64,000 nt of DNA from Pleurotus djamor (taxonomy: Eukaryota > Basidiomycota > Agaricomycetes > Agaricales > Pleurotaceae), in contig JAPEVF010000001.1 of assembly GCA_029747585.1 (NCBI GenBank), positions 194,864-258,863 on the forward strand, given 5' to 3'. The position numbers and the translations under genes were made by a program. This document shows positions 25,108-50,292 of the stretch, piece after piece (position 1 is the first letter of the stretch; the number at the start of each line of letters is the position of its first letter). The notes beneath the pieces were generated by a model. It had not been told where the DNA came from. It saw nothing but the letters and a program-made list of their open reading frames with translations, and searched no databases.

Positions 25108-27938
25108 ATGCCAGAAGACATTCCTCCCCCGTCCACTTCTCAGCCAGCTCCGCGGCCCAAACCACGGGCAAACACAACATCCTCAGCTTCCTCGCTGCCC
25201 ACGACATCCTCCGTGACTCCCTCGGTCAGGCCTCGTTCCTCACCACAGCCGGGCGAACCACATCAGCACGATGGCCGACCTCCGACAAAGAGGGCCAGAA
25301 AAGCTATAAACTGCGAGCCATGCAGGAATAGTAAACTCAAATGCGATAGGTAAGGTACACCAACGCATTCATAGCCGAATCCCCATACTCATGCCCTGAT
25401 CAAATCTGCCTGTGAATTCCAGAAATCGTCCTTGTTCGTCATGCGTTCTAAGAGGTAAGCTGGTCATCAAATCCCTATATCACATTCCCCATGTCAAATG
25501 CTCCGAATGAATATTTAGGCACCACCGCTTCCTGTTACCAAGATGGACTCGGTCACGAAAATCCTAATGTCCGCGGAGATGACCATCAGTGCGTCCAAGT
25601 TTGACTCTACTCCGCCAGCTAAACCATCTAATCCCAAATCAGCCATGCAAGAATCGATCCAGCCCAGGAAATAGCTCGATTACGCCACTCCATTGCTCTT
25701 CTCGAAGCCCACATCTTTCCTGCACACAGAAACCAACTACCGAACCCAAGGCGACAGAGCACATCGCACCCAGAGGCAAACGGGGCCTCAATCATCCCGA
25801 AGAAGGAGGCGATCGACATTGACGTTGGAGGTGATAAGGATGGTCCAGGAACCGAGCCTGGGACCCTGGGGAGCCAAGGACAGGGACTCTACGCCGGCGC
25901 GACCAGTGCCGCGATGTATCTCAAAGTGAGCACGCACAATTCCCTCTGACTACCGGTCCCTCATCAACGTACCGTGACATAGGCCGGGGAGAAACCCGAA
26001 GAAGCAGGCAGTCGCCATCCCAGTGTCGACGAAGTGTCCAATGTCATAACGCCCGAATATGATCGAGACCTATTTGAGCAACTCCCGTCCATTGATATCA
26101 TGGACGGCCTGATATCCCACTACTTCGAATATTGCTGCTGGGTCTACCGACACATCAATCAAACCACGTTTATGCATAACTGGGAACGTTTCAAGGCGGG
26201 CGGTACGGCTGACCGTCTTGTCCTCGCTACTGCATGTGCCATAATGGCACTTGCGGTCCATTACCTACCTCCTCAGCACCATATATTGCAGAGCTTTTCT
26301 GAGAGCTACGAAGTGGTCGGGCAAAAATACTATGAGCTCTCCGGCACAATCCTACACCGGCGCCAGACCGAACTCAGGTCTTATACCCTTGAACTCGTCG
26401 AGCTCCTCCTCATCCGGGCGATCTATCAGACTCTTCACAAGACTGACCCAGAAGAAATATGGCATATACTCGGCGAGCTAGTGACCATCGCTAAGGCCAT
26501 GGGTCTACACCGTGACCCAGGGAAGTGGCGCATGCCCCGCGATGTCGCTGAACGTCGGCGCTGGGCATGGTGGCATGTCGTTCTCCTGGAACGCTGGCAA
26601 TGCTTCATGTTTGGTCGACCCCTCTTCATCGCTTCCCACCACTTTGATACGCAATACCCCTCCTACTGCAGTCCTGAACTCGATAAAACCGGTCGTTTGT
26701 ATCTTCCCAACATTGCCCTCTTCAAACTCGCTTACGTCTTGGGAGATATCATGGACGACGCACTCTCTGTTCGAGCCGTCCCCTATGAGAACGTCATGGC
26801 GAACGATCGCGCTCTCCTGCAATGGATGGAAAACCTTCCCCACGAGCTGGACTTGGACGAGTTCAAGACGGCTAGGAATCTTGCTAGTCCAGACCCTACC
26901 CTGCGGAGGCTGGGCGTACAAAGTATAATCATCCGCAGTTCGTATTATCACATCCGCTTCACCCTCCACCGTCCCTACGCGAGTGCCAACACGGGTTCCA
27001 AATCCGGCGGTGATGCATCGAAAACGGCCCAGTCACTCGAGATCGCTGTCAATGCAGCAGATAAACTCATCGCGATGGTTGACCAACCTGATTTCCTCAC
27101 TACGTCGTCTGTGTCTGTACCTGGACATATGAACTGGATGCCATGGCACTGTTTCTCGGCCGGCATGTTCTTTTCCTTCCAGCTCATTGCTAACGCGGAC
27201 CAACCCGGCGCGGGCCTTTTCCGCGCTAGCATCAAGAAAGCATTGCAGACTTTGGACCAGAGTCGGGGGATGCCAGTGGCTGACAAGGCATATAATATCC
27301 TCAATGCGTTGACTCCCCTTCATTCGCCGGAGTTCCCGACTCTCCACAAGGAGGATAAGGAAAGGGAGCAGGCTCTTGTGCTGGGCACCGTTCGAAAGTT
27401 GGCGTTTCCTTATCAAGATTCGCAATATGGGAAACGTGGAACTGGGGATAGCCCGTATGGTGTGAATGGGTTGGGGACGAGGAACTTGTCTAGCCCTGCT
27501 CAGTCAAGTTCGTTGAGCCCACCGATGGTGATGGCAAATGGTTTACCTCAAGGGTATGACTCCATGACGGCGGTTTCTTCGGTTCGGTCATCGATGGTCA
27601 ATGGTCATAGTAGTGGCTCGCTACCTCCAATATACACAGGAGGTGTCGAGGCTGGTGCATCGACTCACTCCCCTGTGCACCCGCAAGCGTCACCAGCTAC
27701 AAACGGTCATGGTTATGCCGTTGGTTATCACCACCCACATCATCATCCCCACCACCATCATCATTCGCCGGGTCACGCCTTTACGGGCGATCCACGGTAT
27801 GCACATCAGTATGTCCCCACCGTCGAAGATCCGGCTATATGGGGCGCGTCGGTTGGCTTTGGACAGGCAGAGTGGACGCAGTTCCTGGATGGCCTGAGGC
27901 CCGAGTCGAACAGTATACGGCATCTACCTGTGTCCTAG
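25108..27938 (+). CDS. Zn(II)2Cys6 fungal-specific transcription factor
   Basis: Nuclear DNA-binding regulator. Exons 25108-25349, 25423-25454, 25519-25588, 25643-25925 and 25983-27938 give 860 aa. The binuclear zinc cluster spans three exons: CEPCRNSKLKC, then CSSC, then the last Cys in TTASCYQD (C-x2-C-x6-C-x5-C-x2-C-x8-C), preceded by a basic KRARKAIN. The middle fungal_trans domain (residues about 235-560) shows HINQTTFMHNWERF, GLHRDPGKWRMPRDVAERRRWAWW and DTQYPSYC. The C-terminal 200 residues are Ser/Pro-rich and include a His-rich run near residue 800. The start at 25108 is the first Met after a long pyrimidine-rich leader. The target genes cannot be read from sequence. Confidence 0.93.
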
Positions 27939-44073: not shown

Positions 44074-44086
44074 CACTCTATGTATA
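44074..44086. repeat. Left copy of 13-bp direct repeat bounding the Crypton-like element
   Basis: CACTCTATGTATA, identical to 50280-50292. It lies 49 bp after the stop of the hydrolase-fold gene. Interpreted as a target-site or recombination-site duplication. Confidence 0.6.
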
Positions 44087-44118
44087 AAAACCCCTGAGGT
44101 GCCCGGGTGACGCCCTGG

Positions 44119-44132
44119 GACCCTTGGGCACC
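44119..44132. repeat. Left 14-bp inner inverted motif
   Basis: GACCCTTGGGCACC, the exact reverse complement of 50216-50229. Together with GGTGCCC at 44098 it also forms a local hairpin. A second inverted motif, GCTCTGGTCAC, lies at 44159-44169. Candidate recombinase-binding sites. Confidence 0.5.
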
Positions 44133-44705
44133 CGCCACCGTGGCCACGTGCGTGTCACGCTCTGGTCACTTGCCCAGTTCAGGTTACCAGGTATTGATTA
44201 CGTAAACACGATCGGTTCATTTTGTGCTTTGCTCCGCTACCTCGATCGACGCTCTCCCCTCCGCTCCCCCTCCTCGTTCCTTGAATAAAACCTATTTCTG
44301 TCGCATCCTACACTGAGAAACACATCTGCTCCCCCTTCTTCGAGCTTCTCGCGCCAAATCAACCGTCCAACATCGCGCCAGCAACCAATCTGTCTCCCCA
44401 GCAAGCCTATTTTTTCAAATTCCCTCATTCCCCCCATCGTTCGCGCCCTCGTTCGCTCGATCAATCCGTTCGGGTTCGATCATTGAACCCTTTCCAGCTC
44501 GGGGCATTGTTTGGCCACCTACTAGCGGGGTCCTCGTCGCCGCTAATGTCTGCAGAGGCCGGGGAGAGGGATGGAGGCCTGCTTGGGCCATAGATAAGGC
44601 GCAAAGGTCGATGGCTGGTCCCTTTGTGAGTGCATTCCTTTCCCCCCATCTCCACCCCCTTCCTGATATTGTTCTCCAGCGCTCACACACCAAGAAATCA
44701 GAACG

Positions 44706-46246
44706 ATGTCGCGACCCTATGTCCCTGGAGACGTAACGTGTGTCTTTATTTACTTCTTCGATTCCTATCCCCTCATTACTCCTTCAGGCGTCTCCAAGCC
44801 TGTTCCAAACTCGAGTTGCTAGCTTTGGTCCAGAGCCAGCTCTCGAAATGGCCTAAAGATGTCCAGTTTTCGAAGAAGTTGCGGAAGAATGAATACATCG
44901 TTCAGCTGCTCGACCTCGCAAATGGCTTCGTCACGTACTGGCCCCCTCCCACCTCCATTCCACCACTCTCCACCCTTCCCCCCCAACTCGCGGAGATGCT
45001 CGCTAACCAGCCACCTCCACCGTCGCTGACTCCTAGGGTAGACGCCTTAACGCTACCTGAACTTCTCGAGTACTTCGGTATGGATCGTCCCCAACCTGCT
45101 TCGTTGACTCCCCTCGTCGATACGCTGTCTGCGATGCTTGCCCCTGCTGCCGGCCCTTCTTCGAATCCATCACTTCTACCTCCTCCTCCCCCTCCTTCTG
45201 CTCCACCTCCCCTCTCGCAACACAACGACATCAGTAGCCAACTCGGCGGGCCACTTTTGTCCCCATTTTCTTCGCCCCCACCTCCCGATCGTCTGTCGAA
45301 AGGGAAGGAGTCCACAAATGTTGACCTATCGAATCCGCAGGTCAGTTATCGGATGTTTTTCCCTCAACCCTTCTAACTTAAATTGCCTCTAGGATGTTGG
45401 CCTCGAGTTCTCCAAACCACCACCAGAGTTCTTGGAAGTTCAAGATAGCGAATTAAAGCTGGTTGTTGATTCCGTGAGTTATCTCCTTTGTTTCTTCGTC
45501 CTTTAGAATAAACCTGACAAGATTGATGTAGGAGGTTCACAACCGGATCGCCGTGAGTCCGGATGCTCAGTCATCATCAAGCACGAAGCCGATTCGTAAC
45601 AAGTCCTCGAACACTGCCAGGAGATCCCGATCCCCATATTCCCCTTCCACATCGCGAATTCAGCATCTGAACCCCATCATCGACCTAGAGTCGCTCGCTT
45701 CGGGATCACGTCACAACCCTGTTGAACTGGACGGCGATGACAACGACGACAACGACGACAATATCGTTATCCTTCAGCCCTCAAAGAAGCTTTTGAAGAG
45801 CCGGAAGATTGAACTTGTGGATCCGGAGTTGCAGAGTTTGATTCGAGCCGAGGACGGCTTCAATGTGTTCGCGTCTGCGAAAGGCAAGGTTCTCTTGAAC
45901 AGAACCATCATGTCGCAGTGGCTATTTGCTGACAGGATGGTCACTAAGTATAAAAACTATGTGCTGAGCTCGGTACGCACCATGAATTATCAAACAAATT
46001 GCTGAGCTCATTACCTTTGAACAGGGTCACTTGGTGCGGCGCTACCAGATCATCAGAGCGCTTGGATATGAAGCCTCATGGGGCAGACAAGCCCGTGACG
46101 GCGCGAAGCTCATCAACGTTTACGGTCCTGCGGGTTTACATCCTGCACCCGAGGTCATTGCAAAGCTTGATGCCAAGGAACCATCCGGTGCTGGCCCGCT
46201 TTTAGACTACTTGCGCTCCTATGCCGATGCTCACCCCATCAACTAA
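44706..46246 (+). CDS. Proline-rich protein of unknown function, candidate cargo gene
   Basis: Exons 44706-44737, 44788-45340, 45393-45473, 45532-45972 and 46025-46246 close in phase to 442 aa. The N-terminal helix-rich part (LQACSKLELLALVQSQLSKW, LRKNEYIVQLLDLANG) is followed by a long Pro/Ser region with poly-Pro (LLPPPPPPSAPPP), then a basic Ser/Arg segment (RNKSSNTARRSRSPYSP), an acidic Asp/Asn run (DGDDNDDNDDN), and a C-terminal globular part (SQWLFADRMVTKYKNYVLSS, GHLVRRYQIIRALGYEASW). No domain recognised; the composition suggests a nuclear or nucleic-acid-binding protein. It lies inside the 13-bp direct repeats with the recombinase, tail to tail with it (364 bp apart). Confidence 0.75.
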
Positions 46247-46610
46247 GCTGCTGTCTCACGGAGGTGTGTGTTGCTTGATTAGAATTTCTCTTTCCTTTTC
46301 TTCTCTCTTGTCCTTCCTATGCCTTACCTTCAATTCCCTCTCACCCACATAACTACAAAACACCAAAAACACCACAAAAATTACTATTTCCTCCAAAAAA
46401 AAAAGACCCTGATTTCGTTTCGATGTTCCTCTTTTGGCGGACGTCGCGTCACTCTCGTTTACAATTACAATCTTCTATTTTCATAACATTACATACAAAC
46501 TTAGCTACAATTACAGCCGGCAATTCCGCATCTGTTGCACTACTTAGTGTACGTAGGAATTGTCTGTACTTACTGGGGATGTACGAATATAATCGACGGA
46601 GNAAAAAAAA
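46247..46610. other. Spacer between the two element genes
   Basis: AT-rich convergent 3' region with A-rich runs and an N at 46602; no coding supported. Confidence 0.5.
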
Positions 46611-49600
46611 TCACGTCTGATTTGAGTTTGACACCGTAGTGGTCTGGTTCGGGTTTGATGCCGTAATGATATCTTGATAGAGAGTCCCTCCGGTCTTCTG
46701 AAGTGCATCGATAAACGCGCGCGTGGTCTTCAAGTAATCCGTTGCGGGTGTTGGTATGGGATACCGATCTTCAAGAAAGGCCAATGCATGCTCGGCTTCC
46801 CAGCCATTCTTTGCCACAAGCGTCTCGATAAGATTTATGACTTTCTGGCGACGAGACCCCTGCGCCTTCATTTTCCCTTCGTTACCCTTCCAACGAGCCA
46901 TCCAAACTGAGTTGAGCTGCCGAATTGACAGCTGACCATCCATTCCGTCTTTGTATTCGGTCCAAATGTTCCGGATGGTAGGGGATGTGTTTGGTTTATC
47001 AGGAGTCCACCACTTGTACTCGGGAAGCCATTCGGAGTGTTTAGGCTTCCGCACCCATTGAAAAACATGCCGGCGAAGACGATCGATAGGGAGCTTGGAT
47101 TCTAATTGGTCGAGTGAATCAAGCTGTTGTTCACGCTCGAAAGCATCGATGGACAGAGGGAAGACCACACTTGGGTAGATGGTTCCACGCCGACTGACTG
47201 TTTGCAGCTGTGAGGGTAACGCTGATATCAAGGGCAGAGGTGGGATGGGAATTGAAGCTGCAGACACCGTATCCAGTGGAAGGAAGGAAGCAGGCGGAAG
47301 GGTATTGGAGGGGTTTGAAGAACTAGATGCGGGCCGGGGTGAGCAAGTTGTCTCGGGAGTAACATTGATATTTGAACGTCGGGAGGGTTTGACACGGCGG
47401 CTGGATGTCTGGGGGAGTGTGTGATGTTGGATGAAGCTTTCGAGCTGGTCTCGCATGTGCTGTTGATTGATGAGGAGGTGGTTGATGGTGCCTTGATGGT
47501 GTATGTTCGCTTGCGTGAGAACACCATGCATGGACGCAACGACATGTTTGGGAAAGTGTTGAAGTTGGAGACGGCTCTGTTCTTCAGCGTCCCTGATTGT
47601 TTGGACGCTTTCGGCGGCAAAAGTACGAAATTGGACAGAGTTGAATGGGGGGAATGTGAATAATGGGCACTCAGGGTAGCAAGGATATAACGCGGCGGCA
47701 TCTTGAAGGATTACTCTTCGGCTGTGGATGAGGAATTCCAGGAAATGTTTTAGGGCAACATCTTCGGCACTTTTTCCATGTTGGTGACGACGACGATGGA
47801 GGTTCTCAAGCTCTGATTCAACCCATGGGAATAAGAGGTTAACCATATCAGATGGCGGATCTGGGGGTGCGAGTTGAAGCGTGAACACGTGAACAAGTAC
47901 AAGATTGAAAGGTGACATACCAAGCACTCCTCGAGCAACCATGTACGTTTCTTGTTTACGTGCATTGAACGATGCGGCCCCAATCATCGCGTCGACGGGT
48001 AAGGTCTGGTCATAGACATGGTATGAGCCTGGCTGGCTCCAGCCTCCAAGATCTTTTGTATCGTCTCTTGAGGCGCCGTGCTCACGCGCAGTAATCGCCG
48101 TATACGGACGGCCTGCATGTGTAACTTTACTAATCGCGATGTTGAGCTCGGTCTTCATGATATTCACACGTTTTCGATGATCTTTCAGACTTGATTTGAG
48201 CAAAGATGATGCCGAAGTGGAAGGTGGGATACTCACTTTCATAGGTCATTTCAGACTCATTCCCATGTGCTCCTGGGAAGAGGCGAATTCGGTACCAGTC
48301 CCGTCGTCCGGAGTCTACAGAACTGTCACCACTGGTGAAATCGGTGGGAGATTCCGAAGTTGACGACCGTTGAATGTGAAAGAGACTAAAAAAATAGAAT
48401 CCAAGAGCCCCGAATAAACAGAGCTCTGGGTTTCGGTGACGTAAAGCACCCTGCTCATCCAGACGCCCACTCGAGTTTGATTTCCCTTGGTTCGAAAGGA
48501 GGATGAGCGCCTGAAATAGATATTTAGAAGTTGCTAGAGGGAGATAACAGCGATTGAACTCGGGACAGACCGTTTCTTTTGCAGTTGGACTTATGTCTTG
48601 AAGTGGCACCGAGCGCAGTCGAAGATCTGACCACATGAGCCGTCGAGTATTGTCGCCACGATAAGCAACTGTGGTTGAGATGAGGAGCATCGCGCGATCA
48701 CGGATGCCATGATGAATTGCTTGCTTTGATTTACCTGCGTTGCGAAGAAAGTACATCGATGCTCGAGTCAATTCATCGTCGGTATAAGTGTCTGGCCATA
48801 ATCGGTATTAGAAATTTTGTAGCTGAAGAGACGTTTGAATTCATACCTGTCGGTGCCCCGAACGCTTTGATCCGGTACGAATCAGCCAGCTTCTGGGTTT
48901 CGGTGGTCTTCGCAGACTTCTCCAGGGTTTGGATCCGCGAGTCGTTGCGCAACGGAAGCTGTGCCTCAGGGCACGAACGGTAAATTTCAAGGTGTTGATG
49001 ATTCTTGCGATGATGTTCAAGCGCGCTTGTGATCTGCTTGATTGATTCCCATCCCAGTTTGCCGCCATCAGTAGTGCTGTTTTCAGCTCGAGCGGCTCGC
49101 TGGTTGAGTAAAGGGAATGAGTAAATGCTACGTTGGGATGTAGATGAGCTACAACGAACCTTTCTGGGTCGTGTCGTTTCATGTTCCAGGAACTTCGCAA
49201 CCTTGGTCGCGGTTATTGGGTGTGCCTCTATAATCTCACATGCAGGGTCGTTGGCTCGACGAATAAGCGCGTCGTTCAGCCAGAACTTCTCGTATTCCTT
49301 CAATTGGCGTGGATATGCGATCTCCGTACCCTTGCCTCGAGCCATGTCTTCTTGGAGTGATAAACGAACTTCGTGTGTGGAGGCTTCAAGCTCGGAGTAG
49401 ACATTTCGAGAGGTGCCTCCCTCAACCGGTTCTTCGCCAACTTGAATGACTCGGAATCGATCATCTGCCGTATTATCGAAGGCGTATGGCGGTGTCGATG
49501 TATTTGGGAGGTGATCAGACGATGGGACGCTGTCAATTCGACGTCGTTTCCCTGATCGTTTGTCCATGGATGCCAAGGCTTGGAATCGGCGTCGAGATGG

Positions 49601-49684
49601 TGTATCAAGTTGAAGTTGGGGGATTGGAGTAGAGGAGAGAGAACATAGTGAGTCGGCAGCATCTTGGGTTTTAATCCGAGTCAT
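46611..49684 (-). CDS. Crypton-type tyrosine recombinase with GCR1_C-like DNA-binding domain
   Basis: Exons 48847-49684, 48237-48791, 47921-48181 and 46611-47860 (introns 55, 55 and 60 nt) close to 967 aa without any stop or frameshift; a Met at 49762 would add 26 aa. An N-terminal core-binding-like segment (PRQLKEYEKFWLNDALI) precedes the catalytic domain: first Arg in AYRGDNTRRLMWSDL, the H-x-x-R box as THAGRPYTAITAREHG, then DLGGW and the Tyr in SYHVYDQTLPVDAM. This spacing (THxGR ... GxW ... Y...LP..AM) is the Crypton/Ndc10-like pattern. The C-terminus, WLPEYKWWTPDKPNTSPTIR..IWTEYKDGMDGQLSIRQL, matches a GCR1_C-like domain, which fungal Cryptons carry. It cuts and rejoins DNA via a phosphotyrosine link. 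Confidence 0.88.
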
Positions 49685-50279
49685 GGCCACCAACGTGATG
49701 TGGCTTGTAGGTGGCCCGCTGGACAATGAGAACCGTGAGTCGTTGGTGAGTCGAGTGGCCAATGAGCAACTGAAATTGCCGGAAATGTCTTTGCTTCACA
49801 AGGAAGCGAACGCGAATGTTATTCAGTGAGATTAAGCTCTTCGTGCGACAGACAAGGACAGCTAGGACTTGAAGCTCGAAGACTCGAACGACAAAGACTC
49901 GAAGACTGGGGGGAAAGTGTAGACTGCTTTGAATAGATGGATGAGACCGTTGAAGCACACAGTAAGCATGAGAGAAGCAAATTGCTGATTTTTGGGAAAT
50001 ATCTACGGAGCAACGTAACGAACGCGACAGCCATGGTGTCGATGATCGAGGATGTAGACTGAGGTCGGTTAAGCGCGCATGAACAAAGGGGACACTGAAG
50101 AACAAAGCGCCTCGGACTTAGCCGAGAAAAGGTGTCATGCCCAAGTCATGCCCCCTATTCATTGTGGCCTCGATAGTTGATACCATCGTGGCATAGAACG
50201 CGGGACGTTACCAGAGGTGCCCAAGGGTCTTTCCTGTCACAAACAGGGGGTGACCAGAGCACCTTTTCGATTCGGAATA
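49685..50279. other. Right flank of the element, recombinase promoter side
   Basis: About 600 bp without a supported gene. Contains a cluster of gactcgaa-like short repeats (49872-49905) and, at 50214-50260, the motifs shared with the left end. Confidence 0.45.
50216..50229. repeat. Right 14-bp inner inverted motif
   Basis: GGTGCCCAAGGGTC, reverse complement of 44119-44132; followed by GTGACCAGAGC at 50250-50260, reverse complement of 44159-44169. Confidence 0.5.
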
Positions 50280-50292
50280 CACTCTATGTATA
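50280..50292. repeat. Right copy of 13-bp direct repeat
   Basis: CACTCTATGTATA, identical to 44074-44086; 164 bp from the stop codon of UXS. Confidence 0.6.

Follow-up and report, generated by a model that had tools for sequence, protein, structure and literature searches.

The window analysed here, a stretch of 64,000 nucleotides of Pleurotus djamor DNA (assembly GCA_029747585.1, contig JAPEVF010000001.1, forward-strand positions 194,864 to 258,863), holds, we conclude with high confidence, a coding-intact transposon of the CryptonF type between window positions 44080 and 50289, in a variant which carries a second gene, here called X, beside its tyrosine recombinase (YR) gene. The element was placed in CryptonF by its features, namely the YR residues, the GCR1_C domain, repeats at the ends and the lack of terminal inverted repeats. 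An earlier sequence-only reading had proposed a Crypton-type YR with a GCR1_C-like domain, which is supported by the protein domains, the catalytic set, the predicted fold of a paralogue and the ATGT repeats at the element ends. The same reading had limited the feature to the YR gene, whereas the element also takes in X and has about double that length.

The recombinase gene, its active site and its relatives

The YR gene lies in a stop-free coding stretch on the minus strand, running from 49684 to 46611, which yields a protein of 927 amino acids (aa) in six exons once five GT-AG introns are removed.

46611..49684, minus strand: YR gene, ONZ45_g93, six exons, 927 aa, stop included
49684-49160, 49099-48847, 48791-48571, 48510-48237, 48181-47921, 47860-46611, minus strand: YR exons
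48012..48660, minus strand: catalytic stretch from the R304 codon to the Y481 codon, two introns included (from the alignment, residue check and exon table)

The uninterrupted protein that the sequence-only reading had placed here is therefore borne out as a reading frame without a stop, although not as about 967 aa in four exons, a length reached when two 60-bp introns without a stop are read as exon. In the deposited gene model (P0001, ONZ45_g93) the five introns are identical and 22 further residues are omitted; because this model begins at Met40, the start codon is uncertain. The intron at 48846-48792 apparently has no counterpart in the YR gene on contig C1030, which has five exons against six in the window, and a single assembly N stands at 46602, directly past the YR stop codon.

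Two Pfam families match the protein, NDC10_II on residues 278-589 (E 4.2e-29) and GCR1_C (PF12550) on residues 806-876 (E 1.4e-12, 48.2 bits against a cut-off of 23), and as sequence matches both are far above chance level. The second confirms the C-terminal domain proposed earlier. No other family, and no other YR family, was returned by hmmscan against Pfam up to an E value of 1, and in NCBIfam P0001, the paralogue P0003 and X were all without a match close to a cut-off. The catalytic set R-K-H-R-W-Y is present as R304, K343, H446-A-G-R449, W472 and Y481, with R304, H446 and Y481 invariant in all 20 rows of the alignment and R449 found in at least 90% of them. The earlier assignment of HAGR, of the W of GGW and of the Tyr holds, but the first catalytic Arg, previously taken to be the R of GDNTRRLMW, is most likely R304 in Y-R-G-D-N, an assignment which we base on comparison with Cre; R309 is a second invariant Arg nearby. 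An AlphaFold2 model of the full-length paralogue P0003 is predicted to have the YR fold, matching Ndc10 (best), Flp and Cre in the PDB, and thus does not refute the proposed recombinase. By sequence, a 16-row profile had a sole PDB match, CBF3 subunit A (Ndc10; E 0.015), and the single YR protein returned two rows, both at chance level. Compared with P0002, another P. djamor protein, the window YR is identical at 91 of 92 residues in the catalytic block (421-512) and at 53% in the linker (641-770), which may reflect strong constraint or gene conversion.

At an E value of 0.001, 20 proteins were found among 7991 scored candidates, one being the window YR itself, with relatives in P. djamor, P. 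pulmonarius, Tricholomella, Hypsizygus, Psilocybe, Agrocybe, Favolaschia, Hericium and Lactarius; in the P. djamor assembly they lie on contigs C1030, C972, C696 and C689. A tree of the 20 rows, in which 6 of 17 inner branches are poorly supported, places the P. djamor and P. pulmonarius copies in three deep lineages and the Tricholomella copies in three clades, and such a spread over several deep lineages suggests a transposon family rather than a single host gene. A scan of viral_contigs with the YR alignment A1 gave 15 pattern matches and no relatives. The Hericium gene model P0020 contains two more Pfam domains besides NDC10_II, has a KDZ-transposase-like name, and probably represents nested elements or a model error.

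Element ends and gene X

The copies on C1030 and C972 can be aligned over 5563 columns, at 88.2% identity with gaps and 89.7% without, and their similarity ends abruptly: both start ATGTATCCC and finish TATACTCTATGT, giving lengths of 5480 and 5519 bp, and both of these aligned copies carry a 4-bp ATGT direct repeat at the two ends, in line with the 4- or 6-bp end repeats of CryptonF. Homology to these ends, together with repeats in the window itself, delimits the window element.

44080..50289, no strand assigned: whole window element, 6210 bp, ATGT to ATGT (homology to the C1030/C972 ends, 13-bp direct repeat, 14-bp subterminal inverted repeat)
44080..44083, plus strand: left terminal ATGT, within the 13-bp repeat CACTCTATGTATA at 44074-44086
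44119..44132, plus strand: left arm of a perfect 14-bp subterminal inverted repeat (pair I18, among the 25 of 82 pairs listed)
44706..46246, plus strand: gene X, ONZ45_g92, 442 aa, convergent with YR (deposited gene, homologues at the same place in C1030 and C972)
44706-44737, 44788-45340, 45393-45473, 45532-45972, 46025-46243, plus strand: X exons; stop 46244-46246
50216..50229, plus strand: right arm of the perfect 14-bp subterminal inverted repeat (pair I18, among the 25 of 82 pairs listed)
50286..50289, plus strand: right terminal ATGT, within the 13-bp repeat CACTCTATGTATA at 50280-50292

The right end is firm, none of 500 shuffles scoring as well, and the left end is supported by the 13-bp direct repeat and by the 14-bp inverted repeat, the sole perfect pair among the 25 of 82 inverted-repeat pairs listed. 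The leading inverted repeats listed for the C1030 and C972 copies occupy comparable positions (24 nt at 79% and 26 nt at 81%). No terminal inverted repeats were seen at the very ends of the elements, the inverted repeats starting 39 to 74 bp inward. Relics of the right end of the family are present on C785 (15503-15563), C471 (65311-65432) and C696 (L034 2535-2612), none with a convincing left partner. The window element is flanked by a hydrolase-like gene, named by eye, and by a gene of the NAD-dependent epimerase family (Pfam), which resembles a UDP-glucuronate decarboxylase.

X belongs to the element because its coordinates fall between the two ends. Homologues stand beside the YR gene in C1030 (ONZ45_g13776, 394 aa) and in C972, so that all three complete copies have it, and this Crypton family regularly includes X as its second gene. 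On C689, X is accompanied by only the tail of YR (L035 4967-6291, 81% identical to window 45696-46820), and no X was seen in the decayed copy on C696. No Pfam family is matched by X, nor does it resemble a peptidase or a transposase in these searches; a SAP-like N-terminus, considered by eye, was dropped as unsupported by any Pfam match. A protein search with the window X returned only two proteins among 7983 candidates, both from P. djamor, and one with the C1030 X only a single P. djamor protein among 3963. The latter search did not return the window X, and distant relatives may therefore be missed. Among the openly licensed papers listed by literature searches, we recognised none that deals with gene X or with a mushroom Crypton of two genes, and the available parts of PMC12810828, PMC10799480 and PMC4905642 contain nothing on this element.

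Both genes appear to have been under selection. Between the C1030 and C972 copies, YR has a dS of 0.21 and a dN of 0.020 (dN/dS 0.093, bootstrap 0.058-0.133) over 882 of 882 codons with no stop, and two insertions in the C972 YR, of 6 and 9 bases, are both in frame; X has a dS of 0.63 and a dN of 0.086 (dN/dS 0.136, bootstrap 0.096-0.188) over 393 of 394 codons, with no stop in aligned codons. These low ratios indicate that YR and X both retained their function through most of the period since the two copies diverged. Identity of the two copies, taken per 250 columns, is 75-82% in L032 4539-6000, which covers most of X, and 86-100% elsewhere, the element ends being 92-100% identical. With X so much more diverged in dS than YR, the two copies look like mosaics, and the divergent block points to an exchange of X between element lineages.

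Mobility and alternative explanations

When joined, the sequences on either side of the C1030 insertion have an element-free counterpart on another contig (C25:37718-38524), with identities of 99.5% (1520 bp) and 98.3% (715 bp), and the right end of the C1030 element falls exactly at an ATGT of C25. As this site is present or absent between two near-identical contigs, the family probably moved fairly recently. Two other readings were rejected. The C972 insertion had been considered to interrupt a polygalacturonase-like gene, but the peptides were not confirmed by Pfam or PDB and no intact copy was found. C689 had been considered as an allele of the window locus; its whole-contig likeness is confined to window 45512-46820 (with a looser alignment to 47312), and the window ends are not recognised there, 188 and 197 of 200 shuffles being as good, for which reasons we regard C689 as a relic.

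Several observations weigh against an intact, mobile two-gene element. The insertion on C1030 is not textbook clean, since C25 has 203 bp between the flanks (C25:38018-38220; L063 1519-1721) which are missing beside the element; this segment occurs only once in the assembly, and the gain of the element was accompanied or followed by the loss of these 203 bp. For the window copy, a search with the right flank plus 80 bp of the left flank revealed no empty site, and the joined flanks of the C972 site likewise lacked an intact match. On sequence alone the left end of the window element is weak, 18 of 500 shuffles being as good, and a control in which the right-end piece was compared with the left region was also high-scoring (9 of 500 shuffles). 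The assembly yielded no near-identical copy of the window element, and the protein nearest to its YR is 80% identical over 760 columns. The C972 X, as assembled, shows a 1-base insertion at each of two N positions, one of which adjoins a 15-base insertion that keeps the frame, and it lacks 2 bases near an exon edge. A fold prediction for X from three sequences reached a mean pLDDT of 37.7 and was not used as a model, and on C638 a weak X-like piece (26065-26313; E 7.2e-4, 33% identity to residues 9-81 of X) stands on a contig without any match to YR.

The absence of a close copy would suit a real Crypton that is now fixed and immobile in the window, as would the right flank, which has no second copy, its only other match being the element's own terminal 63 bp on C785. 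Such a state, which is compatible with the CryptonF assignment, is possible without being the likelier one, as YR and X are open, the active site is whole and both ends are recognisable; moreover, P0002 sits on a 6.6-kb contig that the assembly searches did not return, and close copies can therefore be missing. It is far less probable that the YR alone is mobile and X an adjacent host gene. The window and C1030 X proteins are only 28% identical, X has no Pfam family and the X-like N-terminal piece on C638 stands without YR, as might be expected of a neighbour, but homologues of X lie inside the abruptly bounded block of C1030 and C972 and occupy the corresponding position in the window and in the C689 relic, and the dN/dS of X between mobile copies is 0.136.

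We consider it very improbable, to a similar degree, that the window gene is a domesticated one, that is, a former Crypton YR retained by the host for DNA binding like yeast Cbf2/Ndc10 or Gcr1. Although Ndc10 is the best fold match and the window copy lacks a near-identical partner, its catalytic residues are all present, in contrast to Cbf2 and Gcr1, whose central parts do not preserve them (PMC3212892), and several deep lineages per species, the terminal ATGT repeats and the present/absent site likewise argue against a host gene, in particular one conserved as a single copy at the same locus in distant species. Thus, of the earlier suggestion that this gene could be recently active or domesticated, recent activity is supported at the level of the family rather than of the window copy, and domestication finds no support. 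Scarcely credible is a role as captain of a large cargo element of the Starship type: a fungal YR gene accompanied by another gene would fit, but the ends are only 5.5 to 6.2 kb apart (5480, 5519 and 6210 bp) and Pfam up to an E value of 1 lists only NDC10_II and GCR1_C for the YR. The captain-type domain, presumably DUF3435, is not among its matches.

Relation to known Cryptons and a possible mechanism

CryptonF elements are defined by a YR plus GCR1_C, and most fungal ones have 6-bp end repeats (Kojima and Jurka 2011, PMC3212892). With Crypton-Cn1 and other fungal Cryptons the P. djamor elements share this domain pair, the R-H-R-Y residues, short terminal direct repeats, the lack of terminal inverted repeats and a patchy distribution, and they differ in the convergent gene X without a known domain, the 4-bp ATGT in place of 6 bp, the subterminal inverted repeats and the mosaic look of X versus the rest in the two best copies. 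Second proteins occur in some Cryptons, such as the C48 peptidase of oomycete CryptonF and CryptonS, and MarCry-1_FO is fused to a Mariner-type element (PMC3212892); these likewise pair a YR with another protein, but X matches no such family. Yeast Cbf2/Ndc10 and Gcr1 share NDC10_II-type and GCR1_C domains and, for Ndc10, the YR fold, yet are host genes without a preserved catalytic site, while the P. djamor YR keeps its site within a mobile unit. Starship captains of Pezizomycotina are also fungal DNA-moving YRs, from which the present element differs in its small size, its basidiomycete host and the absence of any other Pfam YR family. For P. pulmonarius, a two-strain repeat table has a Crypton row (5; 25,088) for one of the strains and a Crypton-V row (54; 316,697) for the second (PMC8022975).

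A circular Crypton intermediate has been proposed by analogy, and Crypton ends are described as hard to define (PMC3212892). In the P. djamor element, the YR would bind DNA through its YR core and GCR1_C, with the subterminal inverted repeats as possible binding sites, and recombination between the ATGT repeats at the two ends would release a circle. Integration would follow by recombination of this circle with an ATGT elsewhere, presumably through covalent phosphotyrosine and Holliday-junction steps. To our knowledge, no Crypton has been shown moving in the laboratory. A coding-intact copy, ends defined at base level in a related pair, a present/absent site and a conserved X make the circle model directly testable.

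Our tentative best guess for X is that it is more than passive cargo and might act as a DNA-binding factor, in an accessory role or in setting directionality. As a speculative extension, which we hold to be less likely true than false, Pleurotus Cryptons could be two-component systems in which the YR needs, or is steered by, an excisionase-like X that binds the subterminal inverted repeats and decides between integration and excision, X being swapped between element lineages faster than YR. The conservation of X in any case raises the question of whether Crypton recombinases work alone.
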